NCBI RefSeq assembly: GCF_024746815.1
Contig: NZ_CP080525.1
Location: 6,442,501-6,506,500 of the forward strand
DNA from: Mesorhizobium sp. AR07
GTDB taxonomy: Bacteria > Pseudomonadota > Alphaproteobacteria > Rhizobiales > Rhizobiaceae
DNA: 64,000 nt
Reading direction: 5' to 3'
A program made the position numbers and the translations under genes. The notes below the pieces were generated by a model. The model saw only the letters and a program-made list of their open reading frames with translations, had not been told where the DNA came from and did no database searches. Shown piece by piece: positions 3,184 to 18,069 of this stretch; position 1 is the stretch's first letter, and each line of letters starts with the position of its first letter.

Positions 3184-3391
3184 ATCCATTTGCAGTTTTG
3201 AAGCCGCATGGGCGCAATCCCTGTTAAACCGCAAAATACAGGGATCTCGACCGCAAAACCCAGTCGGCGACGATTTTCCACCCTGAATTGGTCCGTAAAT
3301 TCAAGGGATACAGAAGAGTTCCCCAACAGGGAATGTTTTCTGGGTAAGAGGGAAAGAAACAGGAATATCAGTTCCATTTGCTCGATGTCCG
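3184..3391. other. left island junction region with scattered CAGGGA/TCCCTG words
   Basis: No gene is supported here. The stretch contains repeated short words related to ACAGGGAA and its complement (near 3218, 3237, 3302 and 3328), as in degenerate repeat debris sometimes found next to inserted DNA in rhizobia. The change in gene content from core-like to accessory falls here, so it is the best candidate for the left edge of the island. I could not find a matching direct repeat at 30.5-30.7 kb. Confidence 0.4.
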
Positions 3392-3682
3392 CTACCGGCG
3401 AAACCTGCTGCGAAGGGCATCATCCGGGCGCGCCGAAGCGATTTGAAGGTAGTGTGCTGAGAGTTCTGCAAATTCGCTGAGAGATGGCGGCCATGGCAGG
3501 CTGGTGATGTTCAACGTCACCTGATTCCCGTGAAGGAACGCCACCATGACCAAGATAGAAGGTAATCCGACAGCGAACCGAAGGAGTTCCTGGGAGGCTC
3601 CCTCGACGTGGCTGATGCCCGAGGTCACCCCAGGCCGAAGAGCTTTGATGTAGACCGGAGGAGAGAACCAGTGCAGAGCCAT
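3392..3682 (-). CDS. DUF982-like small protein
   Basis: A 96-residue frame starting at ATG 3682 (a GTG at 3712 in the same frame is the alternative). The start MALHWFSPPVYIK and the following spacing to SHVEGASQELLRF resemble the DUF982 family, small proteins abundant in Rhizobiales that begin with a W/F-x-P-V strand followed by a helix. No catalytic residues are known for the family. It lies last in the minus-strand operon that starts at 6318. There is no strong ribosome-binding site, so translation is less certain than for its neighbours. The family assignment rests on the N-terminal half only. Confidence 0.45.
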   Translation of the reverse strand: MALHWFSPPVYIKALRPGVTSGISHVEGASQELLRFAVGLPSILVMVAFLHGNQVTLNITSLPWPPSLSEFAELSAHYLQIASARPDDALRSRFRR

Positions 3683-3708
3683 TGGGGGGACTATCAGATA
3701 TTTTGGGA

Positions 3709-4082
3709 TCACGAGGAAAGTCTGCCGCCGTCGAGAGGATGCCGAGCGCCCTCAGGATTCTGATCCGGTCCATAGCTTCGGTCCTGCCGACGCTTTGATG
3801 AGCGCCTGCCGATCTGCTCGGGCGATGTCGCACCGGTCAAGATGTCGCCGATGCGTTCCTGTGCGAAGTCCGCCAGTTCCTCAGCCTCGGTCAATGTCGC
3901 GGCCCTAGCATCGAGAAGAGCTCGGCAAAGACGGCCTGCATATGCCTCGGGTCGTCGGCAGCCGTATTGGTCTGATACCAGGAATCGGCGGCTGCGCATT
4001 CGGGGCAGACATCGGGACGTCGCCCACGGCCCTCCGTCCTGCATTCGGTGCAGAGCCAGCGCCATTTCTTCTCGTTCGTCAT
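3709..4082 (-). pseudogene. small zinc-ribbon protein, apparently frameshifted
   Basis: A frame from ATG 4082 begins MTNEKKWRWLCTECRTEG and carries CTEC and CPEC pairs that form a zinc ribbon at residues 11-29. It stops at 3891 after 63 residues. A second frame continues with no gap from the same place (DARAATLTEAEELADFAQER...) to a stop at 3709 and reads like a natural helical C-terminus. One base gained or lost near 3900 would join them into a protein of about 124 residues. The start overlaps the upstream gene by four bases (ATGA), typical of translational coupling. The 63-residue form alone could still be functional. Confidence 0.5.
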
Positions 4083-4438
4083 TCCAGCACCTCGTCGCCA
4101 GGCTCCGGAGGCACGTCAGGAGCGCCGTCGATGATCGCGAACGCGCGCTCCGCCTTCAGGCGGTCCAGGAACACTCGCGTCAGCTGCGTCACCCGCTCGT
4201 ACTCTCGAATGCGGGATTCCAACAGCTGCTCGGAGGTCTGACCGGACATCCCGGTTCCATCGGGAAACACGATCTCATGCTTGGCATCCGGGAGCCGGAC
4301 CAGCACGGCGAAAGAGTCACATTCCCACCCCGCCCACATGATCGGCACGACGGCGAGAGCGTCGTAGCCAACGTCGCCGAAGCGGTCGTGCATCTCGTCG
4401 GCAAGCATTCGCAGTTGGCTGCGGTCCAGGTCCGTCAT
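4079..4438 (-). CDS. hypothetical protein of the island operon
   Basis: A 119-residue protein starting MTDLDRSQLRMLADEMHD. Its ATG overlaps the stop of the upstream gene as TGATG, and its own end overlaps the next start by four bases, so it sits inside a tightly coupled operon. It has no signal peptide or membrane segment. The middle (DSFAVLVRLPDAKHEIVFPDG) looks like two beta strands, followed by a long charged helix (LLESRIREYERVTQLTRVFLDRLKAERAF). I do not recognise the family. A GTG one codon upstream is the alternative start. Confidence 0.65.
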   Translation of the reverse strand: MTDLDRSQLRMLADEMHDRFGDVGYDALAVVPIMWAGWECDSFAVLVRLPDAKHEIVFPDGTGMSGQTSEQLLESRIREYERVTQLTRVFLDRLKAERAFAIIDGAPDVPPEPGDEVLE

Positions 4439-4851
4439 CACATCCCCGCCGACGGCGGCGCGGGCACGCCGCCTTCGGCATGGTCCTCACAGCGGGTCAG
4501 CAGCCAGGCACCGCCCTGAACGCGGAAAACGCCGGGCCTGCCGCAGACCTCGCAGGTCCCAGCCGCACGGGCTTCGGCTGCGCTATAGGCCGCGTGGATT
4601 TGAGTCTCCGCAGCGGTCGCGACGCGCTTGCCGAGGCGGTAATAAATCCGCAGGCCGCCCAGTTTTTCTTTGATCTGGAGGAGAGTGAAGTCCCTTTCCT
4701 TGCCCTTCGGGTTCACCCGTCTGACGACGGCGAAAAACTCCCGAAGGATCGGGAACCACCCAGTGTCGCACTCGAATTGCTTTGTCACGATCCCGGGGAA
4801 TTCGGCTTTGATGGCTTCGTATTTCCGACTGTGCTCGGTCTCGACGGTCAT
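4438..4851 (-). CDS. phage/island-type hypothetical protein with C-terminal zinc ribbon
   Basis: The 137-residue protein has the order seen in a widespread but uncharacterised phage and island family: CDTGWFPILREFFAVV, then LLQIKEKLGGLRIYYRL, then a C-terminal CEVCGRPG and RCEDHAEG with the Cys/His arrangement of a zinc ribbon. In relatives the middle motif reads QVKEKFGxLRFY (from memory, not a search). I place the start at ATG 4851, since GGAGATTTG precedes it, rather than at the upstream in-frame codon at 4917, which would run into the preceding gene's end. It is followed directly by the 119-residue gene. Confidence 0.7.
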   Translation of the reverse strand: MTVETEHSRKYEAIKAEFPGIVTKQFECDTGWFPILREFFAVVRRVNPKGKERDFTLLQIKEKLGGLRIYYRLGKRVATAAETQIHAAYSAAEARAAGTCEVCGRPGVFRVQGGAWLLTRCEDHAEGGVPAPPSAGM

Positions 4852-4906
4852 CGTCAAATCTCCAAATCGGTCCGGTTGTAAAGTTTTCGCAAAAACATTA
4901 CAGCGC

Positions 4907-5671
4907 TCAAATCTCAACGACTAAGCCGGGGTCGAACCTCGGATTCTCGTTGCCGTATCCACGCGGGTTGCAGCCCACACGCGTGTCGCGCACCCGGTAG
5001 TCGAAGGAATCATGGACGTGGCCGTGCACCCACAGCGCAGGCTTGTGAATCTCGATCATGCCCGACAGGTCTGAAGCGAATGCACCGTTGAGCGCGCTCT
5101 GCCCGTAGCGCTCATGGACCGAATTCCGGTGCGGAGCATGGTGCGTGACGACAACAGTTGGACCGTCAAACGGAGACTGCAATTCCCGCCGGATGTATGC
5201 CGCCGAGGCTTCATGCAGTTCCCTGGCTCGGCCTGCCGTGAACGCCTCATGCGGCGACTGCGTCCACGTGATTGCCCGGTAGTCTGTGAGCATGCCCTCC
5301 GCCGTCGCCATCGCCCAAGCCAGGTCGCGGGGGCTGCGGCTATCGAGCGCGAAGTCCGTCCAGAGCGTCGCCCCGACGAACCTGACGCCGCCGATGACGA
5401 CGCTGGAGTTCTCAAGGAAATGCACGTTCGGCAGCCTGATCTGCCGCGCGAACGCCAGCTGTTCGACGACCGAGTAGCGGTAGAATTCGTGGTTCCCGGC
5501 AACGAAGATCGTCGGCATGAACGCGGCGATCTCGCGCCCGATCCAGTGCATGGCATTAGATACGCCGTTGGTGACGTCGCCCGCTACGATGCACACGTCC
5601 GCGTCCGCCGGCGGGATCGGCAGCATGTCCTCGTAGTCGAGGTGGAGATCGGAGAGGACCCATAGCTTCAC
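4907..5671 (-). CDS. calcineurin-like metallophosphoesterase
   Basis: A 254-residue phosphoesterase starting at a GTG that overlaps the previous gene's TGA. The metal-binding motifs appear in the family's order: SDLHLDYED near the N-terminus, VAGDVTNG, GNHEFYRY, THHAPH and finally HGHVHDSFDY. Together these bind two metal ions at the active site. Members cleave phosphodiesters or phosphomonoesters in nucleotides, nucleic acids or proteins; the substrate here is unknown. The frame is open further upstream, but that part overlaps the preceding gene and is low-complexity Arg-rich translation, so the GTG at 5671 is the likely start. It is one of two phosphoesterases in tandem. Confidence 0.85.
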   Translation of the reverse strand: MKLWVLSDLHLDYEDMLPIPPADADVCIVAGDVTNGVSNAMHWIGREIAAFMPTIFVAGNHEFYRYSVVEQLAFARQIRLPNVHFLENSSVVIGGVRFVGATLWTDFALDSRSPRDLAWAMATAEGMLTDYRAITWTQSPHEAFTAGRARELHEASAAYIRRELQSPFDGPTVVVTHHAPHRNSVHERYGQSALNGAFASDLSGMIEIHKPALWVHGHVHDSFDYRVRDTRVGCNPRGYGNENPRFDPGLVVEI

Positions 5672-6318
5672 GGCTTCGCCCTCCCAGCCTGGCGCTCTCG
5701 GAATTTCACCGCCCCGTCGCGCGCGGCGTACTGCGAGGCCTTGTTCATGAGCCGCATGCAGATGTCTTCGATCCGCTGCTCCGCATGCTCGATCGTGTAG
5801 TCGGCCTGGCGGACGAATTCTTCGGCTGCGACCGGTTTGAAATCCTGCGCGTCTACGCCGACGTCGATAGAGCCTGGCATGCCGAGAAGCTTGCCGTGAC
5901 TGTGTCCAAAAGCCTGGTAGGCACCCCGATGCTGCGCATTCCACGCATAACCCGCGTAGTGCGAAAGCATGATCCTTTGTCCGTCATGCATGATCTCTGC
6001 GGCATGCGCGATCTCGGCCCATTGCAGCCGCTGCAAGGATAGGAGGATGTTGCCTTTCTTGTCCGTGTCGTGATTGCCGACGATCAGCTTCTTCGTGCCA
6101 TTCAAAGCGTAGAAGATTTGGGCAACCCTGCGCTCGTCCAGCCCCATTGCGAAGTCGCCCAGATGCCAAACGGTGTCGCGTGGGTGGACGATGGCATTCC
6201 AGTTGTCGATGAGCGTCTGGTCCATCTCGTCGACGGACGAATAGGGACGATCACAAGCCTCGGGTTTGAGCATGAGTGCATGACCGAAATGGGTATCTGC
6301 AGTCAGGAAGGTACACAT
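5668..6318 (-). CDS. metallophosphoesterase of the small prophage/YfcE-like type
   Basis: A 216-residue protein, first gene of the minus-strand operon. It shows the binuclear metallophosphoesterase motifs TADTHFGHALML (residues 6-17), WHLGDFAMG, IVGNHDTDKKGN, LSHYAGYAW and AFGHSHGKL. The start is ATG 6318, with GGAG six to ten bases upstream; the open frame further upstream to 6579 is probably leader. Similar short phosphoesterases with a DTHFGH start are common in phages and mobile islands, where the substrate is generally unknown. The gene overlaps the second phosphoesterase by four bases, which suggests the two proteins are made together. Confidence 0.85.
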   Translation of the reverse strand: MCTFLTADTHFGHALMLKPEACDRPYSSVDEMDQTLIDNWNAIVHPRDTVWHLGDFAMGLDERRVAQIFYALNGTKKLIVGNHDTDKKGNILLSLQRLQWAEIAHAAEIMHDGQRIMLSHYAGYAWNAQHRGAYQAFGHSHGKLLGMPGSIDVGVDAQDFKPVAAEEFVRQADYTIEHAEQRIEDICMRLMNKASQYAARDGAVKFRERQAGRAKP

Positions 6319-6603
6319 AGGAGAACTCCTCGAAACGATAGCGTATGTCTGCGTGCCGCAAGGCACGCGGGTGGGCTGGGTCAGCCCGCTATTCGGTTCG
6401 GGATCCTCGTCATGATGTCGTCTCCGTCTGATGCTCATTTTTAGCACCAGAGATCTAAGGAAGTGCGATCGGACTACAGGGCTCGCCTGAGGGGCGTCAA
6501 GTGTCCTTGGCGCCTTCGTGCTCAGGAGTGTCCCGATCACGCGCTTCGTGGCTTTGATCAACCGTCTGCCCGGAACCACATCCTCGGACGGAGCAGGTGT
6601 GAC

Positions 6604-6622
6604 CGCGAAAATAATTATCGCG
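6604..6622. promoter_or_regulatory. near-perfect 19-bp palindrome in a divergent intergenic region
   Basis: CGCGAAAATAATTATCGCG has eight of nine base pairs in register around its centre. It lies in the 426 bp between the start of the minus-strand operon (6318) and the start of the Rep-like gene (6745), about 120 bp before the latter. An AT-rich core in a palindrome within GC-rich DNA is the usual look of an operator for a dimeric repressor. No other gene is supported in this interval. Confidence 0.4.
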
Positions 6623-6744
6623 CCCAGTTTTGTTGACGAGGAAGTGCGGGTCCTTGGATGAACTCTTCGAGATTTGTCAGGTCGCCATTCTGATCCCTCT
6701 GCCGGCTATTGTGGCCGTCCGGTAGACGCCGAACCCTGATCCTC

Positions 6745-8598
6745 ATGAATGGGATCGGTATGCAGGGTTCGGGTGGTAGGGCGCAGGCGTTCAGTGCCGC
6801 GTTTGCTGCTGCGCGTGCCACCAGATCGGCCTTGCTAGCCGACGAGCGCGAGCAAAAGAAGCGCCGGAAGGCCCGCAAGCGCGCCGTCATGCCTGACGGT
6901 CTGACCGAAGCCGAACAACGCACCTGGCGCCTCAAGGAACAACTCCGCTTCGAAGACGCGAAAAAGTTCGCAGAGAACGCCCGTTTCGAAAGCGGTCTCG
7001 TCGACGAGCGCCTCCGGGAAGGCTTCAAGCTCCTGTTCCCCCGAAAGATCTGCGGGCGCTGGCGCGAAGGCGTTTGCGAAAAGGGCTTGCGTAGCGTCGC
7101 TTTCGGACTCCCCGGGCAGATGCTCGTCGCGTCGACCCACAAGCGCGGCGATCTCCGGGTGTCCTGGGATAAAGCGGCTCTCGGCGTCGAGAGCCGTTCC
7201 AAGCTGCTGTCGCTTGACCTGCCGTATCTCGAAGGCAACAAAACCTTCCTCTCATTCTGGCGCATCGACCTCGACATGTCCTGGTCGTCAATCGAGTCGT
7301 TCAAGGACGACATCCATCAACTCGTGGGCTGCAAGATCCCGTTCGCGCCGCATCTCGTCGCGGGAGACGAACTCCGCGATGGCACGTTCGTGAGGCCGCA
7401 CCTCTATTTCTTCTTGCCTCCGGGCGAGGCCGTCTGGAACGACCCCGAGGATCCACGGTGCAACATGTGCACGGTGAAGTTTTTCGAAGGCGTCTACTAC
7501 GGCATCGTAGACGCGCTGAAGTCGATCAAGGCTGACCCGGGCGCTCCCGCGACGACCCAACGCGGCAAAAACCCACTGTCGCCGCTCCTGCTCGGTTTCA
7601 CGATGAACGACCGCGAGTTCATGTCGATGTCGCGTTGGGCAGGGTGGGTCGACACTTCTCTCAACCGCGATGCACTCGTGCGACATGCCGCGGCGGAAAA
7701 CGCCGGCCTCGACATCAAGACCTCAAACCAGTTCTTCACCGCGGTCCAGAAGCAGGCATACAGTCTCCTGCGTCGCTGGTACTATAACTCCGACCTTCGT
7801 CTGCGCGCCCGCGACCAGGGCGGTATCGCGGATGAGCTGCATCAGGCCCTCGAGCCTGTCGCGCAGGAGATGTCCGCGCGCATGTGCAGCCACATCTCTG
7901 AGCATCAGGTGACCCTGATGGTCGCCCGGGTCTCGTCCTACGCCGCTGGCGCGTTTGATCCAGCAAGGCTCGAGAAGGACATCGTCCGGAAAGCTCTCAT
8001 GCACATCGTTGACGGCCTCACGACGGTCAGGGAACGGCAGCAGGTCGCCGCCGAATATGCATCGAAGGAGAAGGCCGAAAAGACGCTCCGGCGCCTCGTG
8101 GGCGCATGGGATTCTCTTGCCGTAGAATCCTTGCACGTCTCGAAGGCGGCGCTGGCCCGCGAGGCCAAGGTTTCCCGTCCGACCGTCTACGCGAGATGGG
8201 CGGAACTGCAGGCCGTCCTTGAGGTCCGCAACGGGTGTAAAGTTCGGTGTATAGATAAAAAGCTTCCCACTGGCACGGCCATGCCTGGATTGAAGGGCAC
8301 GGCACTGCAGGACAGGAGGCCTCTCGGAAAGCTACATGGCCAGTCCGAGCACCCCATGGCCCAGACCAGAACGATGGCGGAAATCCAGCCCTTCGTGACT
8401 CGGAAACGGGAGACCGCATTCCGCATCTCTCGGGACGTCCTGCACGAAACCCATCCTGGCGCCGTCGGTCCAGCATGGTGCGGGGCTCAGTGGCTCGACG
8501 AGGAAGACGACGAGGATGCAATGCTGATTGCAATGCAGGAATCCTTCCCCGCGGAAGACTATGTCGCCGCTGCCGAGTGGCTCTGTGAAGATCCTTAG
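6745..8598 (+). CDS. Rep-like protein with primase-type (AEP) motifs and C-terminal HTH
   Basis: A 617-residue protein, mostly unlike anything I can name. The region RIDLDMSWSS (173-182) has a D-x-D pair in a hydrophobic strand, followed by HLYFFLPPGEAVW and, near 272-280, QRGKNPLSP. This order resembles the archaeo-eukaryotic primase-like replicases of plasmids and phages, where D-x-D binds metal and a K-N-P/L motif follows. Residues about 463-493 (SKAALAREAKVSRPTVYARW) form a clear helix-turn-helix. The N-terminus is very basic and probably helical. I infer an initiator or primase that binds an origin in the island. The start is uncertain between ATG 6745 and ATG 6760. It could instead be a large DNA-binding protein with no catalytic activity. 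Confidence 0.5.
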   Translation: MNGIGMQGSGGRAQAFSAAFAAARATRSALLADEREQKKRRKARKRAVMPDGLTEAEQRTWRLKEQLRFEDAKKFAENARFESGLVDERLREGFKLLFPRKICGRWREGVCEKGLRSVAFGLPGQMLVASTHKRGDLRVSWDKAALGVESRSKLLSLDLPYLEGNKTFLSFWRIDLDMSWSSIESFKDDIHQLVGCKIPFAPHLVAGDELRDGTFVRPHLYFFLPPGEAVWNDPEDPRCNMCTVKFFEGVYYGIVDALKSIKADPGAPATTQRGKNPLSPLLLGFTMNDREFMSMSRWAGWVDTSLNRDALVRHAAAENAGLDIKTSNQFFTAVQKQAYSLLRRWYYNSDLRLRARDQGGIADELHQALEPVAQEMSARMCSHISEHQVTLMVARVSSYAAGAFDPARLEKDIVRKALMHIVDGLTTVRERQQVAAEYASKEKAEKTLRRLVGAWDSLAVESLHVSKAALAREAKVSRPTVYARWAELQAVLEVRNGCKVRCIDKKLPTGTAMPGLKGTALQDRRPLGKLHGQSEHPMAQTRTMAEIQPFVTRKRETAFRISRDVLHETHPGAVGPAWCGAQWLDEEDDEDAMLIAMQESFPAEDYVAAAEWLCEDP

Positions 8599-8612
8599 CA
8601 CACCACGCCACA

Positions 8613-8973
8613 ATGAGCATCGCGGAACGTCGCGCCTACAACCGCGCCAGGGTCGCGGAGAACCGGCAGCGCCGGCGCGAAGCCCCGCTATCGTTGAACC
8701 TGATCCGACCCCCCCGACGTGAGAGCTGCGCTCGCTGATGCTGCTCTGGCGATCAATGCGCCTGGGGCGGAAGAGATCTGGCGCGTCTTGATGGCCGCGT
8801 TTCCATCGAAGCCAAGTCTTACGATGAGCGCGAAGCTCCTAGTTGGGGCTTGTCGAGCCCGGGCTTTCGACGAGATCCTGGGGGACCCTGCATTACCCCC
8901 ATCAAACCATGTTCATGGCACTATGCTGGCGGAGAGTGACGACGACCGACACGAGGCAGGGATGAGGCGCTGA
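8613..8973 (+). pseudogene. small basic hypothetical protein split at a C7 tract
   Basis: ATG 8613 opens a frame with a very basic start (MSIAERRAYNRARVAENRQR) that reaches a stop after 44 residues, because a run of seven cytosines at 8709-8715 changes the frame. With six cytosines the frame would run straight into the next open frame (...RPPDVRAALADAALAINAPG...) and end at 8973, giving about 119 residues. The joined product has the same plan and length as the intact protein at 9402-9761: a basic, Arg-rich N-terminus and then helices starting VRAALADAA/VDVALAAAT. Whether the C7 tract is a real mutation, a slippage switch or a sequencing error cannot be told from one sequence. Confidence 0.5.
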
Positions 8974-9045
8974 TGGCGCTGTCCAAGCATCTGACGGCGA
9001 GACCTGGTACATCTCAGCTCCTGCAGATCAGCGTCGTGACTAGAT

Positions 9046-9240
9046 GTGCCGAAAGAAAGCCAAGAGCCGGGAGCGGCAGAGATCGCTGTGGACCGCGGAG
9101 AGGTTTCCCACACCGATGCGAATGTTCGGGCCGCCCTGGCTGACGTAGCGCAGCTCATTCTGGCAACCGACGCACCCAGGGCGGACCAGATACGAACTGT
9201 GCTCGGGAAGTATTTGAGGCACGACCGGACGTGCCGCTGA
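9046..9240 (+). CDS. small hypothetical protein, possible decayed relative of its neighbours
   Basis: A 64-residue frame, starting at GTG 9046, whose core VRAALADVAQLILATDAPRADQIRTVL matches VRAALADAALAINAPGAEEIWRVL of the preceding split gene almost position for position. The overlapping frame from ATG 9044 gives a basic stretch (KKAKSRERQRSLW) like the N-terminus of that neighbour, so this may be a second frameshifted copy of the same small gene. No good ribosome-binding site is present. Function is unknown. Confidence 0.35.
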   Translation: MPKESQEPGAAEIAVDRGEVSHTDANVRAALADVAQLILATDAPRADQIRTVLGKYLRHDRTCR

Positions 9241-9401
9241 CCGTGTCCTCCAGGGCGAAGACCGGAGCGCTCAGGACGAAACTACTTAGGCTCCCAGCAC
9301 CTCATCTTAAATTATCCTGATGCGCGGCAGGCTCCCTTTGTCGCTTGCATGCGCATCCGCTCTCATGAGTCACGTAGAGACGGCTCGTAGAGGCGAGGAG
9401 A

Positions 9402-9761
9402 ATGCCGAGACCGGAGAATCCAAGTGAGGCCGCCAAAAGGGAACGCCAAGCACGCTACAGACAGCGTCTTGAAGACCGAGGCCGTCCCGAATCGTCTGAG
9501 GTCGACGTTGCGCTAGCTGCCGCGACGGCGGCTTACGTCAACGCGGTGAATGCGATCCCCGTAGGGCAGGGCGATTTCCGCACAGCTCTGAAAGCGATCC
9601 TTCGGGGCACTGTCGACATCCTAGTTCGGCGTGGATGCTCGTCGGACGAAGCGATTGCTATGGTGCGCTGGCGCGTGTCGCGGGAAACTCGCCCGGACAT
9701 CGATGCGCTCATTTCGGCTTCACGGATGCCGCAGCGGCTCGGATTGGGGGAGGTCACGTGA
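9402..9761 (+). CDS. small hypothetical protein with basic N-terminus
   Basis: A 119-residue protein from ATG 9402, with GAGGAG well placed upstream. Residues 8-28 (SEAAKRERQARYRQRLEDRG) form a strongly basic amphipathic helix that could contact nucleic acid. The rest is mostly helical (VDVALAAATAAYVNAVNAIP..., then FRTALKAILRGTVDILVRRG). The layout matches the split gene at 8613-8973. Several such small genes follow the Rep-like gene in the same direction and may form one transcript with it. I do not recognise a family. Confidence 0.65.
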   Translation: MPRPENPSEAAKRERQARYRQRLEDRGRPESSEVDVALAAATAAYVNAVNAIPVGQGDFRTALKAILRGTVDILVRRGCSSDEAIAMVRWRVSRETRPDIDALISASRMPQRLGLGEVT

Positions 9762-9827
9762 AACGGTCTTCTCCCCGTTACTTGGTAGAACCGAATCCAA
9801 AGCCCCTCGATTCTCTACGAGGCGGCC

Positions 9828-10049
9828 ATGGCCGATCGGCTGACCGCTGCTCTCGACGCGCGACGTCATGTCGCCCGGCTCGATCCTGATCATGCCAGGC
9901 GGCCAAGGCGTAGGCTTGGCACGGAGCGACATTGCCCTCGGTCATCGTCTCGCAGTGACGAGCGCGGCTTCGCGAAGGGCGGCCCAATGGGCGCTACGGC
10001 GATCGCGCTTGCGGCTCGCTACCGCCGTCAAGTCCCGACAGGTATCTGA
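9828..10049 (+). CDS. possible small hypothetical protein
   Basis: A 73-residue frame starting MADRLTAALDARRHVARLDPDHA. The first 25 residues look like a natural helix, but the rest is Arg-rich and low in hydrophobic residues, as in a shifted frame. The preceding gene ends as GTGA at 9758, which could also start a different short frame across this stretch. Between 9762 and 10149 I see no frame that is clearly coding. Treat this entry as weak; it may be the remnant of a longer gene. Confidence 0.25.
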   Translation: MADRLTAALDARRHVARLDPDHARRPRRRLGTERHCPRSSSRSDERGFAKGGPMGATAIALAARYRRQVPTGI

Positions 10050-10149
10050 CGGATCAGGGGGATCTCTTCGAATGAGCGCAGTGATTCATCCTGGTCTTTT
10101 GCATGAACTCAGCAAATCCTTGCGCCACGAAACGAGGTGAGACGGGTCG

Positions 10150-11088
10150 ATGCGAGGAACGGAATCGGAAGAACTCAAACGGGGACGGGCGCTTTCGCGG
10201 AGGACAAGAGACATCGCGAAATCGTATGGTCTCGATAGTCGTGCCGCGCTGCAGCGTTGCGTTTGCGAGGCCGTGTTGTGGGCGCTCCAAGACGTGTCCG
10301 CGCATGATTTCGTCGTCAAAGGAGGGCTGCTAGAGGATCAGCGTGTCCGCGAGACAGACAATGCCGACATCTCATATTTCGTCCCGCGAACCGTGAAGGA
10401 AATCCAATCCGACCTTTCGTTGGCTGCCGAGCAGCTCCGGAATTACGGCATCCTCTGGTCACTCGCCGAGTTAAAGATTCTCGAAATGAACGGCCGGGTT
10501 CATGGTTGCCGTGTTCCGGTACGCGCGGCCCTCGGTGACACCCGTGTCGCAACGCACGTGGATATCAGTTTGGGCGACCTGCCTGTCGGAGCGGTTCGCC
10601 GCCTGTTTGGGTCAATTTTCAAAGGGCCAGAATTTTTGGCCTGGGCGCAACCGCTTGAAGCACAAGTTGCCGACAAATTCGCGATCATCGTCACCAACGG
10701 GGTGGCGAACACCCGGCTGAAAGACTACCGGGACCTGTTGCTGGCCCGATGGAAGGGGCTGGACGACACCAAGATTGCTCGAGCTCTGCATCGCACGATC
10801 CGCGAGCGAAATGCCGATACAGGTCTTCTTCTGGGCATTCCGGACGGGTTTGGTTTTGAGTTCGCGGATGCGAAGAAAGCGGAATGGAAAGCCTTTACCC
10901 AGGACGGCGGTGATTTCCTCGACGTCGTCTGCCAGCTGCGGCGCTGGTACGCCGAAATCTCCGACAGGCTTTATAAACTCGCCGCGGCCGGCCCGCTGGA
11001 GCCGCGTAGCCACGTCCAGGCGCCGGGTCTTGAGATGCCAAAATGCAACGTCATCGAGCTGTCGGCGTATCGCCGGATGCGCGCGTGA
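10150..11088 (+). CDS. AbiEii/AbiGii-family nucleotidyltransferase
   Basis: A 312-residue protein of the nucleotidyltransferase-fold family that includes the toxins of type IV abortive-infection systems (AbiEii). Visible features are VVKGGLL (K57-G58-G59), where relatives have the conserved KGG loop, then ETDNADISYF (68-77) with the acidic pair D70 and D73 that would bind metal, and further on EAQVADKFAIIVT...RLKDYRDLLLARW, where relatives have the AEK and R-x-KD-x-x-D motifs. AbiEii toxins transfer nucleotides, for example to tRNA ends (family knowledge). The usual AbiEi antitoxin gene is not found beside it. The next gene starts 17 bp downstream and may be co-transcribed. The family call is good; toxin activity is inference. 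Confidence 0.75.
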   Translation: MRGTESEELKRGRALSRRTRDIAKSYGLDSRAALQRCVCEAVLWALQDVSAHDFVVKGGLLEDQRVRETDNADISYFVPRTVKEIQSDLSLAAEQLRNYGILWSLAELKILEMNGRVHGCRVPVRAALGDTRVATHVDISLGDLPVGAVRRLFGSIFKGPEFLAWAQPLEAQVADKFAIIVTNGVANTRLKDYRDLLLARWKGLDDTKIARALHRTIRERNADTGLLLGIPDGFGFEFADAKKAEWKAFTQDGGDFLDVVCQLRRWYAEISDRLYKLAAAGPLEPRSHVQAPGLEMPKCNVIELSAYRRMRA

Positions 11089-11105
11089 ATCGCAGGAGAA
11101 TTTCG

Positions 11106-11486
11106 ATGGCCCGCTCAAACCGTAAGCCCGACTCTGTGCTGCCCGTCGACGAGGAGCCCGAGGTCCCTCTCACGAACTGGACTCTGGTCCATCATTCTGG
11201 CGTCGGCTATCGCCTTGCCGGATATCGGGAAGACTCCGCCCAAGGACGGATGACGTCGAAGGTTGTGGCCTTTGACCTCAGTGCAATGATGGCGACGACG
11301 AAGTCTGGGCGTATCTATCACCTCCGCGGTGACCAGGATCCCGATGCTGCTCTCCTGGTTGTAAAGGCATACATGGCAAGGTGGGGCATCGGCGTCCGCG
11401 ACATGGCGCTGGCAGATGTCGAAGAACTTGAGCAGGGGCTTGGGTCAGCGATGGGCGTCACCATGAAGATGCCGACGCTCAATTGA
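11106..11486 (+). CDS. small protein of an uncharacterised island domain family
   Basis: A 126-residue protein from ATG 11106, with AGGAGA upstream, starting 17 bp after the AbiEii-like gene. The core NWTLVHHSGVGYRLAGYRED, then VVAFDLSAMMATTKSGRIYHL, recurs in two other places in this island: the N-terminal half of 11810-12409 (...STALVEFDPIAGTAKTASGRPYRLDG) and the decayed gene at 20554 (HWTLVQHNGVGYRLVGAHED). The shared pattern is W-x-L near the start, then a V-x-F-D strand, then T-x-SGR-x-Y-x-L. Function unknown. Because it is next to a toxin-like gene and a relative carries a DNA-binding domain, an antitoxin-like or regulatory role is possible (inference). Confidence 0.7.
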   Translation: MARSNRKPDSVLPVDEEPEVPLTNWTLVHHSGVGYRLAGYREDSAQGRMTSKVVAFDLSAMMATTKSGRIYHLRGDQDPDAALLVVKAYMARWGIGVRDMALADVEELEQGLGSAMGVTMKMPTLN

Positions 11487-11809
11487 ATTCTGATCCGGGT
11501 GAGGGGGGCGGCGCTACGCATAAAGCTCGTCCCATTCTTCGCCCATTACCTATCTGAACGCCGACAATTCCCATTCAACATGCCCCATTCGAACTTGGTC
11601 CCAAGGTTCTCGGCGCCAATTTCCTCTTTCGTCTGTCGAGTGGCTTCAAGCGCTCGCCGTCGTCATGGGTTGTTCTTTCTCATGGGATTATCTGGCTCGT
11701 CCGGAACCGCGGCGACCCGCTGAACCGCCTCTCGTTTATGTTTGGCGCCTTGTCCCAGGCTTTGCGACATCAATGATCATTCTCACAGGAGCCACATGAG
11801 GGGATCACG
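11487..11809. other. intergenic region, nothing recognised
   Basis: This 323-bp gap has only short frames without ribosome-binding sites. It probably contains the promoter of the 11810 gene, but I see no convincing -35/-10 pair, operator or terminator. Confidence 0.4.
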
Positions 11810-12409
11810 ATGGTCGAAAAAACCGAGCGCGTAGTGCATTTTTGGGCACTTATTTCCGAAAATGGGCGCGGCCCGCACGTCGCGGGAATGGACGCTTTTG
11901 GAGTGATGTGCACGTCGACGGCCCTGGTCGAATTTGACCCTATTGCAGGGACTGCCAAGACTGCATCGGGCCGCCCGTATCGTCTCGATGGCCCGCCTGA
12001 GCCCGACTACGGTCTCGCTGTCGCGCATGAGCTTTGGTCGCGTGTCTACAATCTGGAGGGTTCCGACATTAGAAGCCTGTCGCCGGACGAAGCGGTGGCA
12101 CTGATATCGAAGCGCGGAAACAAGTTTTTTGGGTGTTCGCCCAAAGCCTATGGCCGCGGAAATGTTTTCCGAGATCTCGATCTACCCAATCCGGATGTCC
12201 TGATGGTCAAAACCGACGCCGCGATCAGTATCGCTTCCCTGATTCACGAGCGTGGCCTCTCCGTCGAAGAGGCTGCCGAGATCGTCGGGATCGAGGCCCA
12301 TCAGCTGCGTGGGATCATTGAGCGAGGACGGTTTGACGATGTGAGCGTCGAGCGGCTGGACAAGATCGTGGAGGCATTGGAGACGCATGCGCCAGGGACG
12401 CAGCCGTGA
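11810..12409 (+). CDS. island domain fused to XRE-type helix-turn-helix
   Basis: A 199-residue protein. Residues 1-95 repeat the small domain of the 126-residue protein at 11106 (HFWALISENGRG..., ALVEFDPIAGTAKTASGRPYRLDGPPEPDYG). Residues about 135-195 (DAAISIASLIHERGLSVEEAAEIVGIEAHQLRGIIERGRFDDVSVERLDKIVEAL) form a Cro/XRE-type helix-turn-helix of the antitoxin-like class, with the usual helix spacing ending in LDKIVEAL. It is probably a transcriptional repressor, with the N-terminal domain for dimerisation or sensing (inference). The ATG is preceded by GGGGATCACG. It is transcribed convergently towards the 12614 gene. Confidence 0.75.
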   Translation: MVEKTERVVHFWALISENGRGPHVAGMDAFGVMCTSTALVEFDPIAGTAKTASGRPYRLDGPPEPDYGLAVAHELWSRVYNLEGSDIRSLSPDEAVALISKRGNKFFGCSPKAYGRGNVFRDLDLPNPDVLMVKTDAAISIASLIHERGLSVEEAAEIVGIEAHQLRGIIERGRFDDVSVERLDKIVEALETHAPGTQP

Positions 12410-12613
12410 TCGGTCATGAGCGTGAAGCCAAGACGTCATGTAGCAAAGGATGCATGTTTGGCCCATGGACCACGTCGATCATCTGGAGCGTATGGTAGAG
12501 CTCGGTATCAGCGCCGGTCACAGCGAGCGCGGCTGGAATCGATTCAGCCGCGTTCACTATGAGATCGGTTCGAGGTGGCTGGGCGGCCAAGATGGTCGCC
12601 CAGCCGGCCGGTA

Positions 12614-13123
12614 TCAATGCATCACCGCCGAGTTTATCATCGCCTTTGCCCTCGACAGGACGCCGTTTTTCGCGAACCATTCGTTCTCATACTCGATGCG
12701 GAACACCTGCGTGCCGAGCACGACGTCGCCTTCGAAGCCTCCATCTTTCAGAGGTGTGACGACGCAGTCAATGCCTAGGCCGTTGCCCTCCATCCACGCG
12801 CAATAGGAAAAGATTTCCGGCTCGTATTCCCAGATGGATGTCGGGCTACCGGAGCTGTCTTCCGAGGCCTCCTGCTCGTCTTCCGTGAGCCTACCGACCA
12901 CTATGTAGCCGAGGCGTTTTCCGGCGGCGATACAGGCGAGCCTTGCCCCCACGAGCGTGGGCCAGTCACCATGCCAGATGGCTTCCTGGTTGGTGAGATC
13001 GAAGAGATAGCCTTCGAATACCCCTGCCGTCCCTCTGACAACACAAATCTCCACCTCCTCGTCGAGGCGCAGTGTGTGCTCGTCACGCCCGTAATCGTAG
13101 GTCCAATTGTAATTCCCTGGCAT
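12614..13123 (-). CDS. hypothetical acidic protein
   Basis: A 169-residue protein starting MPGNYNWTYDYGRDEHTLRL, with AAGGAG nine bases before the ATG, which fixes the start. It is acidic, has no signal peptide, and contains several W/Y-rich strands (EAIWHGDWPTLVGARLACIAAGKRLGYIVVG). The region after residue 85 is Glu/Ser-rich and probably a linker (EDEQEASEDSSGSPTSIWEY). I do not recognise it; the composition resembles small immunity-type proteins, but nothing in the neighbourhood supports that. It is convergent with the HTH gene and stands alone. Confidence 0.65.
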   Translation of the reverse strand: MPGNYNWTYDYGRDEHTLRLDEEVEICVVRGTAGVFEGYLFDLTNQEAIWHGDWPTLVGARLACIAAGKRLGYIVVGRLTEDEQEASEDSSGSPTSIWEYEPEIFSYCAWMEGNGLGIDCVVTPLKDGGFEGDVVLGTQVFRIEYENEWFAKNGVLSRAKAMINSAVMH

Positions 13124-13999
13124 CGTATACTCCTTACTTGCCTGCTGGGTCGAAGAACGTTGATGTCTGCAGCTGCGCCGCAGGTCATTTCCGAGACATT
13201 TCCGGAATGACGGGCATTTTTAGCAGACTATTTCGCCATATTCAACACGTACAAATACATATATCGAGATATTTAAGATAGTTGCACAAAATAGGAAATA
13301 AATACTAATAGATGATGGTCGTAAGAATTAGAATATACTTATCCTTTATTTTGTATTTCCAATCCTAAATCTGTAGGATTGAATCCTTGTGCGAAGGGTT
13401 CGTTGATGCCGTTTGGAGCGGGGCCATCGAAGGCAGCAAGGATTCGGACGCGCTTCGTCCGCGACCGGCTTCCGTCGTCAGTAGAAAATTATTCCTGATG
13501 GACTCGCTACATCCGCCCTTTCGACGTCCGGTCCGGGGGATATTTCTCAGCTGTGACGGTCGGCATGGGCAACTTAGGCTCCTGGCGGCGAAGTGGCGGG
13601 CCACAATCGTTGGCAGTCGACCGGGTCGTTAACCGGGGATCCGGAATTCCCAGATCCCTGCTCGCCTTGGGTTCGGCATCGTTGACCGTAAGCGATACGC
13701 CTTGTCGCACGGAAGATGTGGCAAGTGGATGGACCGCCTATCCGATCATGTGGATCGACCAAGTGACGCTTGACGGCCAAGCGGCGGAACGTCCGTGCCT
13801 ATCTGAGAACCTCTTCATGGCGTCCAAATTGTTGCACAAATACAACGGCAAGAGGGCTCGCCAAAAATTTCCCGCGCCAAATTTGTTGACCAGCCCCAGT
13901 GTTTGCTGAGATCGGTCAACCATTTGTTTAAAAACGCTTATTTGACCCGAAGATGAATCCAACGAACCCTTGAAGGCACCGGCAACAAGGGATTTTCGA
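13124..13999. other. long intergenic region with an AT-rich core
   Basis: I find no convincing gene in these 876 bp. About 13210-13380 is strongly AT-rich against a GC-rich background, with the palindromic word ATATATCGAGATAT and a small inverted repeat CAATCC...GGATTG near 13358-13380. It could hold the promoter of the 12614 gene, a nucleoid-silencing site, or an origin for the island's Rep-like protein. The short frames in 13380-13960 have poor codon use and no ribosome-binding sites. Confidence 0.45.
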
Positions 14000-15352
14000 A
14001 TGCGGGTCTTTTCCACTTTCTCAGGCATTTCAGCTGCAAGCGTCGCATGGAGACCACTGGGCTACCGCTTCGTCGGTTTTTCGGAGATCGAGCCGCTCCC
14101 CTGCCATGTGCTCCACCATCGCTGCGGAGCAAGCCAACCCAGGCGACTGCCGATAGGTGACGTCAAGCGCGCCAAAGCAGTCGCCGGGCTTCCAGAGGCA
14201 GGCATTCCGAATCTTGGTGACATCAGCCAGATCACGGATGAGGATCTGCAGGCGCTTGGGCCTGTCGATGTATTGGAGGGCGGAACGCCCTGTCAGGACT
14301 TCTCGGTGGCGGGTCTGCGCAAGGGCCTGGCCGGCGCCAGGGGAAATCTGACGCTCGCGTTCTGCGACCTAGCCGAGCGGATGCGTCGCGTCAACAATCT
14401 TCAATTCATCGTTTGGGAGAACGTATATGGGGTCCTATCGGACAAGACGAACGGTTTCGGCAACCTCCTCGCGGCGCTCGTCGGGGAAAGTCGCGCACTG
14501 GTCGCGCCAGGGCAAAGGTGGACGAACGCGGGTCACGTTGCTGGACCCGAGGGGGAGGTCGCATGGCGGGTCTTTGATGCTCAATATTGGGGCGTCCCCC
14601 AACGTCGCCGTCGCGTCTTCGCTGTGGCAAGTGTTGGAGACCGACAGATCGATCCTCGAGCCATATTGTTTGAGCCCAAAATACTGCGCCGGCATTCTGA
14701 GGCGAGCGGAAACCTGGGGAAAGGTGCTCCCTCTGGTAGTGACCGAGACACTATTGTCGGTCCGCTAGCTTACGCGCTCTGTGACGACTATGTGCCAAAA
14801 GCTTCGCCTGACCTCGCCTATAGCCTGCTCGCCGGGTCGGCAACAGGCACCGGACACACCCCGTGTGTCGTGCACAGGCAGGCAATTGCGAATACGGCGA
14901 ATCCAGAAAATCGGGCCGTAGGTATTGATGCGCCTTCAATCGTCGCAGCAATACCGCCCTCAGCGGAATGCGACAGCAGCCTGCCGCCGAGCGTCACGCC
15001 TCCTGTCATGCGAGCGCCGGCCAACGGCGCCTCGCGGCGCTGCCGTGGGGGAACACGTTCCACTGCAAGCGGGCGCCAACGCCAGCGTCGACCCAGAGAT
15101 CGGCGGCAGGCTGGGGTGGCTTCGGCTGAGGCGCCGTGGATCGTTCGGCGTCTCCTTCCTGTCGAATGTGAAAGGCTGCAGGGATTTCCAGACGGTTGGA
15201 CCGGTGTGCCGTTTCGCGGTCGCAGAGCGGCGGACACGCCCCGCTACCGCGCGATCGGCAATTCCATGGCCGTGCCCTGCATGCGTTTTATTGGCGAGCG
15301 GCTGCTGGAGTGCTGGCTGAGCGAAGGGCATGGCCCGCGAGGCGTCGTATGA
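14000..15352 (+). CDS. DNA (cytosine-5) methyltransferase, solitary
   Basis: Transfers a methyl group from SAM to C5 of cytosine in a DNA target. The 450-residue protein has the C5-methyltransferase motifs in order: FSTFSGISA (4-12, SAM binding), GGTPCQDFS (94-102, catalytic Cys98), WENV (139-142), WGVPQRRRRVFAVA, then near the C-terminus ECERLQGFPDGWT and RYRAIGNSMAVP. The start is ATG 14000; the frame is open earlier but the family begins here. No restriction endonuclease or second subunit gene adjoins it, so it is an orphan methylase as in many phages and islands. The segment around 15040-15130, in the target-recognition area, is Arg-rich and low quality, so a compensated pair of frameshifts there is possible. 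Confidence 0.88.
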   Translation: MRVFSTFSGISAASVAWRPLGYRFVGFSEIEPLPCHVLHHRCGASQPRRLPIGDVKRAKAVAGLPEAGIPNLGDISQITDEDLQALGPVDVLEGGTPCQDFSVAGLRKGLAGARGNLTLAFCDLAERMRRVNNLQFIVWENVYGVLSDKTNGFGNLLAALVGESRALVAPGQRWTNAGHVAGPEGEVAWRVFDAQYWGVPQRRRRVFAVASVGDRQIDPRAILFEPKILRRHSEASGNLGKGAPSGSDRDTIVGPLAYALCDDYVPKASPDLAYSLLAGSATGTGHTPCVVHRQAIANTANPENRAVGIDAPSIVAAIPPSAECDSSLPPSVTPPVMRAPANGASRRCRGGTRSTASGRQRQRRPRDRRQAGVASAEAPWIVRRLLPVECERLQGFPDGWTGVPFRGRRAADTPRYRAIGNSMAVPCMRFIGERLLECWLSEGHGPRGVV

Positions 15353-15403
15353 CCCTGGGGTTCGTTGGATCGCGACACTTATGCCGCAGGCCTAGACCAT
15401 AGA

Positions 15404-15434
15404 TCACCAGCGCGACGTCCAAAAGCGCTGGTGA
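15404..15434. terminator. 10-bp perfect inverted repeat between convergent genes
   Basis: TCACCAGCGC (15404-15413) and GCGCTGGTGA (15425-15434) pair perfectly across an 11-base loop. The stem follows the stop of the methyltransferase gene by about 50 bp and faces the minus-strand gene ending at 15476. There is no T-tract, so intrinsic termination is uncertain. Confidence 0.45.
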
Positions 15435-15475
15435 ATTACGGAACGCAATAAGCGCCCAAATCGCAGCTCCTACGT

Positions 15476-15820
15476 TTAGGACGGCAAGGACGTCGGGCGA
15501 CACGGCACGATGCGGACAGTCTGCGCGGTAATGAGCGCCGTGGCTTTCTTCGCCGACAAGGCGGCGACCGCGATCATCAACCCGACAGCCGCCGAATGCG
15601 ATGCCGCATCCGTGCCTTCAGCGAGCGCCAACAACGCACGTGCAGTTGCTTTCAAACCTTCACCTTCCCGCTCGATCATGAGTGCGCGCGACAAGAGAGG
15701 GCGTACGGTCCTTGGATCGGGCGAAGGGTAATCGTTTGCGATTGCCGGCTTTGTTCGGCGGGCACGGGTCCCCCACCAGGCTTTCGGCGACCCAGCGTGC
15801 ATGGACGACGGCTCAGTCAC
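15476..15820 (-). CDS. hypothetical protein
   Basis: A 114-residue frame from GTG 15820, preceded by GGGAG. The N-terminus is polar; the middle (TVRPLLSRALMIEREGEGLKATARALLALAEG) is a convincing helical run, followed by an Ala-rich hydrophobic segment (AAVGLMIAVAALSAKKATALI). No family is recognised. A second frame (15288-15503, 71 residues, one hydrophobic segment) overlaps its end and could be a downstream partner, but it also runs into the end of the methyltransferase gene on the other strand, so I do not list it separately. Confidence 0.45.
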   Translation of the reverse strand: MTEPSSMHAGSPKAWWGTRARRTKPAIANDYPSPDPRTVRPLLSRALMIEREGEGLKATARALLALAEGTDAASHSAAVGLMIAVAALSAKKATALITAQTVRIVPCRPTSLPS

Positions 15821-16122
15821 GAGTTGCTCCCGGCCTGATCATTCGTCCCCCCTGGCTGTCGGTGCGAACTCGTTTCAAATTTAACGGATCTTCGAATGCA
15901 TGATTCATCTCGTCACCAACATCCCGTTTCCGGATCTGGATCTCCTGCGCCCCCACTGCTAAGGACGCTGCGCCCCGGGGATGTTGCGACATGGCCGCCG
16001 CCGGGCCGAGATTCCTCCTCTATCGTAGATCAGAGACTGTCCGTAGCTGCTGAGCCGCGGCCGACTCGCGTGTACCGTCACTTCGACGGAGCGCGGTCCC
16101 TAGCCAACAATAGGAGATCGAG
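15821..16122. other. divergent intergenic region
   Basis: This 302-bp gap separates the minus-strand gene at 15820 from the plus-strand gene at 16123 and must contain both promoters. I see no operator-like palindrome or RNA gene in it. Confidence 0.4.
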
Positions 16123-16629
16123 ATGGCTACCACCCTTACCAACCGCGTCGCGACGATGACGATGGGCTATTCGACTGAACCCTGGAAGCCGGAAGGCTCG
16201 CGCCGCCCGGATTCGTCGCGGGTCCCCGTCGGCTACGACGTCCCGCTGCGCGAACTGCCGCCTGAAGTACAGGCACAGTTCGTCGAGTCCGTCGACAATC
16301 CTCCCGAGCCTTATGCAGTCCGGACGTCCGGACTGGACGGCGACGAGGCGGTCGTCGAGTTCGACTTCCGCCTTTCGGACGAGACCGCACGGAGGCTGCG
16401 GATCAAGCCCTTGGCAAGGCTGGTCGTCGCAGGGCACGGCCCTGACGCCGGATACCCCGGCCGCGTCAGCATCCACTGGTCGTCGCCGAAGTCTGGCAAT
16501 GATCGTCTGTTCTCCGGTTCGGAGACCCAGTTCTGCACGGAGGGGACGTGGGTTGAGAGGGCTGACGAGGCTATCGGCCAGCCCGGACGTACGCTGCTCG
16601 AGCTGCTCGAAGGCGCACTCGACGGCTAG
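16123..16629 (+). CDS. hypothetical protein
   Basis: A 168-residue protein from ATG 16123, with AGGAGAT upstream. The first 25 residues are Thr-rich and probably flexible (MATTLTNRVATMTMGYSTE). It then has alternating strands and charged loops (YAVRTSGLDGDEAVVEFDFRLSDETARRLRIKPLARLVVAGHGPD), which suggests a small beta-rich domain, and ends in an amphipathic helix (TLLELLEGALDG). No signal sequence, membrane segment or catalytic motif is visible and I do not recognise it. It stands alone and is followed by a strong hairpin. Confidence 0.65.
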   Translation: MATTLTNRVATMTMGYSTEPWKPEGSRRPDSSRVPVGYDVPLRELPPEVQAQFVESVDNPPEPYAVRTSGLDGDEAVVEFDFRLSDETARRLRIKPLARLVVAGHGPDAGYPGRVSIHWSSPKSGNDRLFSGSETQFCTEGTWVERADEAIGQPGRTLLELLEGALDG

Positions 16630-16661
16630 CGTCGCCGCGTTTTTCAGGCGGCTCCATGACA

Positions 16662-16692
16662 TACCATTCCGCGATGATTTCGCGGAATGGTA
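16662..16692. terminator. 12-bp perfect hairpin after the 16123 gene
   Basis: TACCATTCCGCG (16662-16673) pairs without mismatch with CGCGGAATGGTA (16681-16692) across a seven-base loop, 33 bp after the stop codon. It is a very stable stem but has no following T-run on either strand. A second GC-rich stem follows at about 16738-16776 (GCCAAAG...CTTTGGC). Together they probably end transcription from both sides. Confidence 0.6.
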
Positions 16693-16917
16693 CTCGGCGT
16701 ACCTGGAGACAAGTAGCCCACGTTTGCGCTGACAGATGCCAAAGCCCCGCCCTGGCCGGTAGGGCTTCTTTGGCCTCCAGATGGAAATCGTACTGGCAGC
16801 CCGTCTGTCGAGCCACAACGAGCTCGCTGGCGATGCGATGGGAATCTCAGCCGCTGCGCTTGAGACGGTCCCGGATCTCTACGTAGTGGTCGCGCTCTTC
16901 TTGGTGTGATGCGGTCC

Positions 16918-17310
16918 TCACAGCAACCGACCTTCTTCCACGCCGAAGGCCTCTTTGAGGTCCCATTTGGGACCGCACTTGTCCACTCGGCGTTCGACAT
17001 CGAGCTCCCGTTCATGGATCACGGTAAGCGCATGCGCCACGTCGGCCAGCACCTCGGTGCTGTTCCCGCCCTCCTCGCGGTAAAGGGAAAACCGGTTGTC
17101 GATCGCCACGGTCATGTATGCGATGCACTCTTTGATATGGTCGAACGCGGCTTGGCCGTAGAGACGGTCGTCCTCGTCACCGTTGCGGTCGGTCCAGCCG
17201 CCGCTCGGAATCTCCGTGGCGTCCAACCGAAGCTCTTCGGAATCGTGCAGTCCTACCGAGATCACACCGTAGAGCGCGATGCGGCGTCGGCGAAGTTCAG
17301 TGTCAGTCAT
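16918..17310 (-). CDS. hypothetical protein of a three-gene island operon
   Basis: A 130-residue protein from ATG 17310, preceded by GAGGTGAAC; the frame is open further upstream, but that part is the duplicated hairpin element. The sequence begins MTDTELRRRRIALYGVISVG, is acidic (DRNGDEDDRLYGQAAFDHIKECIAYMTVAIDN), and ends in a helical stretch. There is no export signal and no recognised domain. It is the third gene of an operon with 18107-18259 and 17410-17976, separated from the second by a copy of the hairpin element. Confidence 0.6.
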   Translation of the reverse strand: MTDTELRRRRIALYGVISVGLHDSEELRLDATEIPSGGWTDRNGDEDDRLYGQAAFDHIKECIAYMTVAIDNRFSLYREEGGNSTEVLADVAHALTVIHERELDVERRVDKCGPKWDLKEAFGVEEGRLL

Positions 17311-17355
17311 GTTCACCTCCTCATTAGGGACTTCGTTGTCGAGGTTCCATACGAG

Positions 17356-17419
17356 GTCCCCATATATGCGCTGTGCTGGTCGGCTGCGCCGCATAGGTTG
17401 GGACACCGCTCAGGCTGCG
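17356..17419 (-). repeat. intercistronic hairpin element, copy B
   Basis: About 64 bp that match copy A (18006-18069) at most positions: GTCCC-x-TATATGCG, CGGCTGCGCCGCAT and CGCTCAGGC are shared in order. In the transcript (minus strand) it begins at the stop codon of the 17410-17976 gene and ends about 46 bp before the next start. Its stem (ATGCGGCGC with GCGCxxxGCAT) is less perfect than in copy A. Confidence 0.6.
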
Positions 17420-17976: not shown

Positions 17977-18005
17977 GCCATTCTCCTCGTTTTCCGTGCC
18001 GGGAT

Positions 18006-18069
18006 GTCCCCGTATATGCGGCGCTCGTCGGCTGCGCCGCATTCGCTGGGATATCGCTCAGGCGGCTTC
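18006..18069 (-). repeat. intercistronic hairpin element, copy A
   Basis: Copy A contains a perfect nine-base-pair stem, ATGCGGCGC (18016-18024) with GCGCCGCAT (18034-18042), around a nine-base loop. On the transcribed strand it follows the codons for Glu-Ala-Ala and a TGA, just as copy B follows Asp-Ala-Ala and TGA, so the repeat includes a gene end. It precedes the 17976 start by about 30 bp. Confidence 0.6.

Follow-up and report, generated by a model that had tools for sequence, protein, structure and literature searches.

The window, a 64,000-nucleotide stretch of a contig from Mesorhizobium sp. AR07 (NZ_CP080525.1), carries on its forward strand a reading frame that is open from an ATG at position 6745 and encodes a protein of 617 amino acids (rep; Table 1). 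An alternative TTG start of this frame at 6709 is possible; an ATG stands at the equivalent of 6745 in three close homologues (beginning MNGI, MGGI and MSGI), which supports the start given here. The closest homologues, from Tianweitania sediminis and Aminobacter niigataensis, are 61–65% identical to the window protein, and dN/dS over 520 aligned codons was 0.188, 0.137 and 0.166 against the three close relatives, at dS values of 1.2–1.65 that are near saturation at synonymous sites. By these comparisons the gene is real and intact, is under purifying selection (dN/dS 0.14–0.19) and is more than a chance ORF. No second copy was found in its own genome. The leader directly upstream of the ATG is a possible expression-control region of rep; the stability of its predicted RNA fold was no better than that of shuffled sequences, and an Rfam search for antisense-RNA or structured-leader control of rep gave no match. 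At the other end of the frame, the C-terminal tail had pLDDT block means of 23–29 from residue 511 onward, and blastn similarity to the three close relatives ended at 8263.

Table 1. Features of the rep locus (positions in the window; residues numbered from the ATG at 6745).
Feature	Position	Strand	Evidence
Island, 27.5 kb, between DUF1499 gene and metallo-beta-lactamase-fold gene	about 3184..30712		comparison with genus relatives
Phosphoesterase-like gene (calcineurin-like), divergent from rep	5668..6579	-	Pfam below cut-off; homologues near rep relatives
Leader upstream of ATG	6698..6744	+	similar in both Aminobacter copies
rep gene, predicted 617-aa ColE2-like AEP replication initiator	6745..8598	+	ORF, dN/dS, profile alignments, tree
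AEP motif I, RIDLD, residues 173-177	7261..7275	+	R173 and D177 invariant among relatives aligned; position 175 D or E
AEP motif II region, RPH, residues 217-219	7393..7401	+	P218 and H219 invariant among relatives aligned
AEP motif III, AD, residues 263-264	7531..7536	+	invariant among relatives aligned
KNPLSP, residues 275-280, counterpart of K-[NT]-P in ColE2-type Reps	7567..7584	+	profile alignment
PriCT-like helical domain (predicted), residues 323-423	7711..8013	+	low-confidence model against 3vw4_B; profile alignment
Helix-turn-helix (predicted), residues about 440-497	8062..8235	+	TetR-type HTH structural matches, profile alignment
Candidate replication origin, codons 498-506, TGTAAAGTTCGGTGTATAGATAAAAAG	8236..8262	+	synonymous-site conservation, CAGATAA resemblance
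C-terminal tail, residues 507-617, poorly conserved, predicted without structure	8263..8595	+	pLDDT, blastn

rep lies within an island whose extent is established by comparison with the genus. The left flank (1–3183) is conserved in most genus relatives searched, and in seven of the eight genus relatives examined the DUF1499 block is followed, after 63–85 bases, by the metallo-beta-lactamase-fold block, which in the window stands at about 30.7 kb; the DNA between the two blocks of the window is therefore an insert. The eighth relative (G016, C1:1997000-2016900) has about 6 kb of other DNA at the same insertion place, which may thus be a hot spot. No tyrosine recombinase in the island was among 58 genome matches, no ParA of the AAA_31 family was found in it, and no exact 11-mer was common to the two island end zones scanned, nor was any end repeat found; for serine recombinases the analysis covered 29 selected ORFs of the island in addition to rep, by Pfam scan. 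The earlier note on this DNA had proposed an integrated element whose excised form this protein could start to replicate. The integration part stands, as an acquired 27.5-kb island; excision is unsupported, since neither a tyrosine integrase, a ParA nor an end repeat was found, nor an 11-mer common to the end zones scanned, nor a second copy of the gene or of the origin-like site described below.

The island holds other genes besides rep. Small ORFs follow rep and AT-richer DNA lies at 13–14 kb (50.8% GC), both as the earlier note had described. Homologues of the calcineurin-like phosphoesterase gene are present in Tianweitania (7021–7581, adjoining rep) and on a viral contig (4708–5229, about 2.5 kb from rep), and in both places the phosphoesterase gene adjoins a gene for an FtsH-like AAA-M41 protease. 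The phosphoesterase gene and rep possibly form a linked module. An AbiEii-type nucleotidyltransferase toxin gene and an HTH_37 gene occupy 10150–12409, and a C5 cytosine methyltransferase gene (13970–15352) lies downstream of the AT-richer stretch. Positions 15506–15840 hold a fragment resembling L-aspartate oxidase genes of Mesorhizobium plasmids (best-covered match about 78% identical), and parts of a DDE transposase at 25710–27047 on the reverse strand fall in separate ORFs, so that the gene is apparently split. Two dispersed repeats of about 125 bp, one at 2234–2359 in the left flank and one at 3448–3575, have many copies in genus relatives; the second also matches Sinorhizobium plasmids, and one Mesorhizobium plasmid has its match at a place annotated as an IS256 transposase.

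The motifs of archaeo-eukaryotic primases (AEPs), given in PMC5862659 as hhhDhD/E, a motif-II histidine (sxH) and hD/E, are established in the window protein in that order as RIDLD, PH and AD. The residue two before the motif-II histidine is R, not small as in sxH. All 12 clade members compared have D or E at position 175, D at 177, H at 219 and D at 264; the acidic residues are thus not scattered, and scattering is what the earlier note had named as a sign against a primase. The sequence QRGKNPLSP occupies residues 272–280, and the succession of RIDLD, QRGKNPLSP and a C-terminal helix-turn-helix that had drawn attention to the gene is present as described and conserved in the relatives.

Structure prediction, which the earlier note had suggested as a check, was run and yielded a poor model. 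AlphaFold with eight sequences, in an alignment that held no ColE2 sequence, reached a mean pLDDT of 48.9; a single-sequence prediction (pLDDT 37.1) was unusable. With the poor model, Foldseek found no match at E up to 0.001, and ColE2-P9 Rep came fifth and sixth (E 2.0). When the model was compared with the 482 top-ranked Foldseek chains, the second match was 3vw4_B, the ColE2-P9 Rep DNA-binding domain bound to its origin, at a Z of 7.1 that is tied with its neighbours in the list and within the range of common arrangements; it covered 88 residues within 323–423 of the model. TetR-type helix-turn-helix chains aligned with the model at about 440–497 with Z up to 7.5. When PDB sequences were searched with the clade profile, 10 matches were obtained, all at the helix-turn-helix with E of 0.009 or more and nearly all named TetR-type or transcriptional regulators. 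A Pfam scan of the window protein gave no match to PriCT_1 and placed the helix-turn-helix matches below cut-off. The structural comparison, made with a predicted model, supports a ColE2-type assignment without proving it.

To place the protein in a family we relied on profiles. Pfam, PHROGs and NCBIfam scans of the window protein gave nothing above threshold. The Pfam family PF03090 (Replicase) did not match it at E up to 10, nor did it match the three closest relatives; its cut-off was passed by four of six plasmid relatives and by one of four further distant ones, the other three falling below. A genome search with PF03090 was uninformative on distribution (0 of 61 genomes, the own genome included, and 0 of 14 controls). 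By tblastn against plasmids, six records were recovered, all from alphaproteobacteria, and in four of them the gene is annotated as a replication initiation protein; a chain of matches led from the window protein to a Microvirga plasmid protein (2e-52), from there to Azospirillum (3e-39) and on to RepA of the Pseudomonas syringae group (6e-5 at best among the matches listed for the Azospirillum relative). At E up to 1e-3 the Azospirillum relative matched 129 plasmid records, counting its own, and Pseudomonas accounted for 79 of these. When a profile built only from the window protein and three close relatives was aligned with one of eight gammaproteobacterial ColE2-type Reps by hhalign, the two were collinear over 299 columns (96.3%, E 1.7e-9), from before the catalytic motif to the helix-turn-helix. 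A wider clade alignment raised this to 99.7% (E 9.4e-26); an unrelated control profile gave 0.3%. In these alignments RIDLD corresponds to [FL]D[LIV]D, PH to the region of the motif-II histidine, AD to AD and KNP to K-[NT]-P. With high confidence for a profile-based assignment, the protein is thus predicted to act as initiator primase in a ColE2-like (class C theta) replicon. The earlier suggestion of a plasmid or phage replication initiator of the AEP type agrees with these alignments; it had assigned the protein to no named family, and the protein can be placed beside one, ColE2-type Rep.

A tree was built from 20 proteins, the eight gammaproteobacterial Reps and 12 others, with the pACRY02 and A. 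ramasamyi proteins left out. The 12 (alphaproteobacterial, one of them from a viral contig) separated from the eight with support of 100/100, and the window protein grouped with Aminobacter and Tianweitania (100/100), then with Microvirga (99/97). Given this split and the lack of a PF03090 match above the gathering score, we file the window protein as a member of a sister clade outside the characterised family. The relatives from Acidiphilium, Azospirillum, Microvirga and Roseomonas plasmids are annotated as replication initiation or hypothetical proteins. Roseomonas p5 is a circular 49.7-kb plasmid with terminase, portal, capsid and tail genes as well as a clade member, which is listed as hypothetical; none of its 55 listed features is annotated for replication, and no initiator domain was found in ten further p5 proteins. 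Another clade member lies on a 49.8-kb viral contig with a terminase. Acidiphilium unnamed3 carries other rep genes, so the clade member is not the sole initiator candidate there. A 55-kb Aminobacter niigataensis contig (NZ_JACHOT010000012.1) has two Rep paralogues about 19 kb apart that are 75% identical over 539 residues; both genes carry the origin-like site described below, each in a different version.

The gene is rare among the genomes searched. A protein search found rep in one of 101 genomes, its own, and a DNA search matched 22 of 146 genus genomes, the other 21 giving only matches of 26–37 bases. A search of 385 genomes with the clade alignment gave matches in 14, the own genome included; 12 of the 13 others matched in or around the helix-turn-helix only and one (G126) partly upstream. 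The Microvirga protein matched four of 398 genomes, again with the own genome included; two of the three others were helix-turn-helix segments and one (G753) was a weak match over 243 residues (E 8.1e-4). No relative of rep came from the first genome-contig scan with the protein alone, from two viral-contig scans with broad alignments, from tblastn on phages or from blastn of the rep DNA on plasmids. Among the titles and abstract starts listed by searches of the open-access literature, with most subscription papers outside that scope, none describes the clade or its embedded origin-like site.

Directly after the end of the helix-turn-helix coding part, codons 498–506 read TGT AAA GTT CGG TGT ATA GAT AAA AAG, with a GC3 of 2/9 against 0.75 for the window gene. 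Conservation of this site at the codon level is established among the close relatives: codons identical in all four genes (the window gene and its close relatives) made up seven of the eight informative positions here versus 55 of 264 gene-wide, the 264 columns being those with the same degenerate residue in all four. When columns were shuffled, such a window arose in 1.4% of cases (P about 0.014), and a run of six identical codons likewise in 1.4%, both figures being uncorrected for the choice of window at a site that had been noticed beforehand. The window gene and the Tianweitania gene each use the codon ATA a single time, and in both it falls at this site. With up to 3 mismatches allowed, the 27-bp sequence matched nowhere else in the window or in the 8.73-Mb genome; the exact origin pattern had 0 matches in viral contigs.

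A similar short stretch follows the helix-turn-helix in 11 of 14 clade genes examined. It reads CKV[RG]CIDKK in the close group and C-x3-C-[IL]-[DG]-[KR]-[KR] in Microvirga and all three Acidiphilium genes; three Azospirillum genes encode PLDKK. In Roseomonas and Belnapia only VKK is present, and the viral-contig member L037 has no such stretch. At the DNA level Microvirga retains TGT...TGT ATA, and the Azospirillum group, in which the cysteines are absent, has TTA GAT AAA AAG at a GC3 of 3/9 in genes of 0.77–0.79. GC3 at the stretch was mildly low in Microvirga and Belnapia and not low in two Acidiphilium genes tested (6/9). Roseomonas p5 contains a 45-nt stretch holding GTAAAAAAGG (the VKK codons) twice at 93%, at 7216–7260 within rep and at 7460–7504 from the rep stop codon on.

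ColE2 origins comprise two CAGATAA repeats and an AGA primer site (PMC3632715, PMC10457243), and the putative origin of the pPT23A family lies within the 3' end of rep or directly behind it (PMC5304414). The candidate site has one TAGATAA and a TGTAAAG/TGTATAG pair; two CAGATAA repeats are absent. Among eight ColE2-type records, AGATAA occurs 5–23 bases past the rep stop in three and 200 bases past it in one, and four have none after rep on the same strand; none was found in two pPT23A-like genes examined, in Roseomonas p5, in Belnapia or on the viral contig (L005, L036 and L037 together). The earlier note had pointed to iterons near 6.6 or 13.3 kb. No array was present in 6400–6900, 8500–10200 or 12600–14000, where only short two- and three-copy families were seen, and our candidate lies elsewhere, inside the rep gene itself. 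From its codon conservation and its resemblance to ColE2 origins, we lean towards the 27-bp site within the reading frame as the putative origin of the replicon. More tentatively, much of the alphaproteobacterial clade might have its origin embedded in the rep frame, with the DNA-binding domain encoded before it and a disposable tail after it.

Part of the codon conservation at the site could reflect a conserved peptide, and one alternative attributes all of it to a protein motif, C-x3-C-[IL]-D-K-K, with codon identity by chance or shared ancestry. We hold this to be doubtful, though of some weight: the residues at 498–506 are themselves conserved, the shuffled-column P is only about 0.014 and the low GC3 does not extend to the two Acidiphilium genes, yet the Azospirillum group lacks the cysteines and still has TTA GAT AAA AAG at low GC3, the ATA is the single such codon of two genes, and the second copy in Roseomonas p5 lies outside the coding region. 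It is very improbable that ribosomes shift by -1 at the AAA AAG run and so produce a shorter Rep. A AAA AAG is a known slippery heptamer and is created by GTA AAA AAG in Roseomonas and Belnapia; in the window gene, however, the heptamer is T AAA AAG, and some relatives interrupt the run, with AAG AAG in one Aminobacter copy, AGA AAG in Microvirga and AAA AGG in two of three Acidiphilium genes. The conserved part begins about 20 nt upstream of the run. The frameshift reading was rejected on the heptamer of the window gene and the broken run of the relatives.

The island and the protein also admit other accounts. A functional integrative element, excising and replicating as a circle with this Rep, would explain a discrete insert with an empty place in seven of the eight relatives examined and a rep gene that is intact and under selection; it is unlikely given that no tyrosine recombinase, no ParA and no 11-mer common to the end zones scanned were found, and in view of the split transposase and gene fragment inside the island. 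We think it probable that the island is instead a captured, partly decayed remnant of a plasmid or phage-plasmid. The setting of the gene, in a 6.66-Mb contig beside phosphoesterase-like and toxin-like genes, might suggest that its product is a primase-like protein of the chromosome that serves repair or defence and has no link to plasmid replication, but this is scarcely credible for a gene found in one of 101 genomes, whose clade members are on plasmids and whose product has the domain order of ColE2 Rep.

Our overall reading, to which we give a probability of about 0.8, combines a ColE2-like initiator, a candidate origin embedded at 8236–8262 and an island that is probably a plasmid or phage-plasmid remnant. 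The observation in the earlier note is confirmed and its interpretation partly supported. ColE2 Rep unwinds DNA with its PriCT-1 and helix-turn-helix domains (PMC5862659), and the ColE2 primer is extended by host DNA polymerase I (PMC3632715). The gene arrived with the 27.5-kb island. By analogy with ColE2 we infer that its product functions as a replication initiator: a small origin would be bound and opened by the helix-turn-helix and PriCT-like part, the primase domain would then make a very short primer at this origin, and extension would fall to host DNA polymerase I. If the clade, which serves plasmids and phage-plasmids, does keep its origin within the rep frame, a single gene would suffice as an entire replicon, and such a unit in this chromosome would be a potential second origin. 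The assignment offers a name and a likely mechanism for replication proteins of alphaproteobacteria that lie at the edge of Pfam's reach or beyond it, among them probable initiators of phage-plasmids, and proposes an exact 27-bp candidate origin. An intact chromosomal initiator with its own candidate origin raises the question whether it is silent or firing.

Compared with known systems, the window protein resembles ColE2-P9 Rep and ColE2-type RepA (PF03090 Replicase, PriCT-1 and helix-turn-helix) in its predicted domain order; ColE2-type Reps likewise have the AEP motifs, the K-N-P motif and a helix-turn-helix, and their PriCT-1 domain has a putative PriCT-like counterpart in the window protein. 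It differs in size, the eight ColE2-type Reps compared being 291–457 amino acids long versus 617, with an extra N-terminal region of about 120–140 residues and a 110-residue tail in the window protein, and it remains below Pfam thresholds and in a separate clade. Next to the end of the helix-turn-helix coding part, three of eight ColE2-type records have an origin-like site, as the window gene does; unlike in those records, the site lies inside the gene, with about 110 poorly conserved codons still to come before the stop. RepA of the pPT23A-family plasmids of Pseudomonas syringae is a ColE2-related initiator of a different clade, and the one P. syringae RepA gene examined has no AGATAA in its second half or in the next 500 bases. 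The putative origin of that family, within the rep coding sequence or directly behind it, is comparable to the candidate proposed here. The alphaproteobacterial proteins from plasmids of Acidiphilium and Azospirillum, from Microvirga pR24_2 and from Roseomonas p5 are 24–31% identical to the window protein; they differ from it in that the window copy is chromosomal, and they share with it the motifs and, for those included in the tree, the clade.
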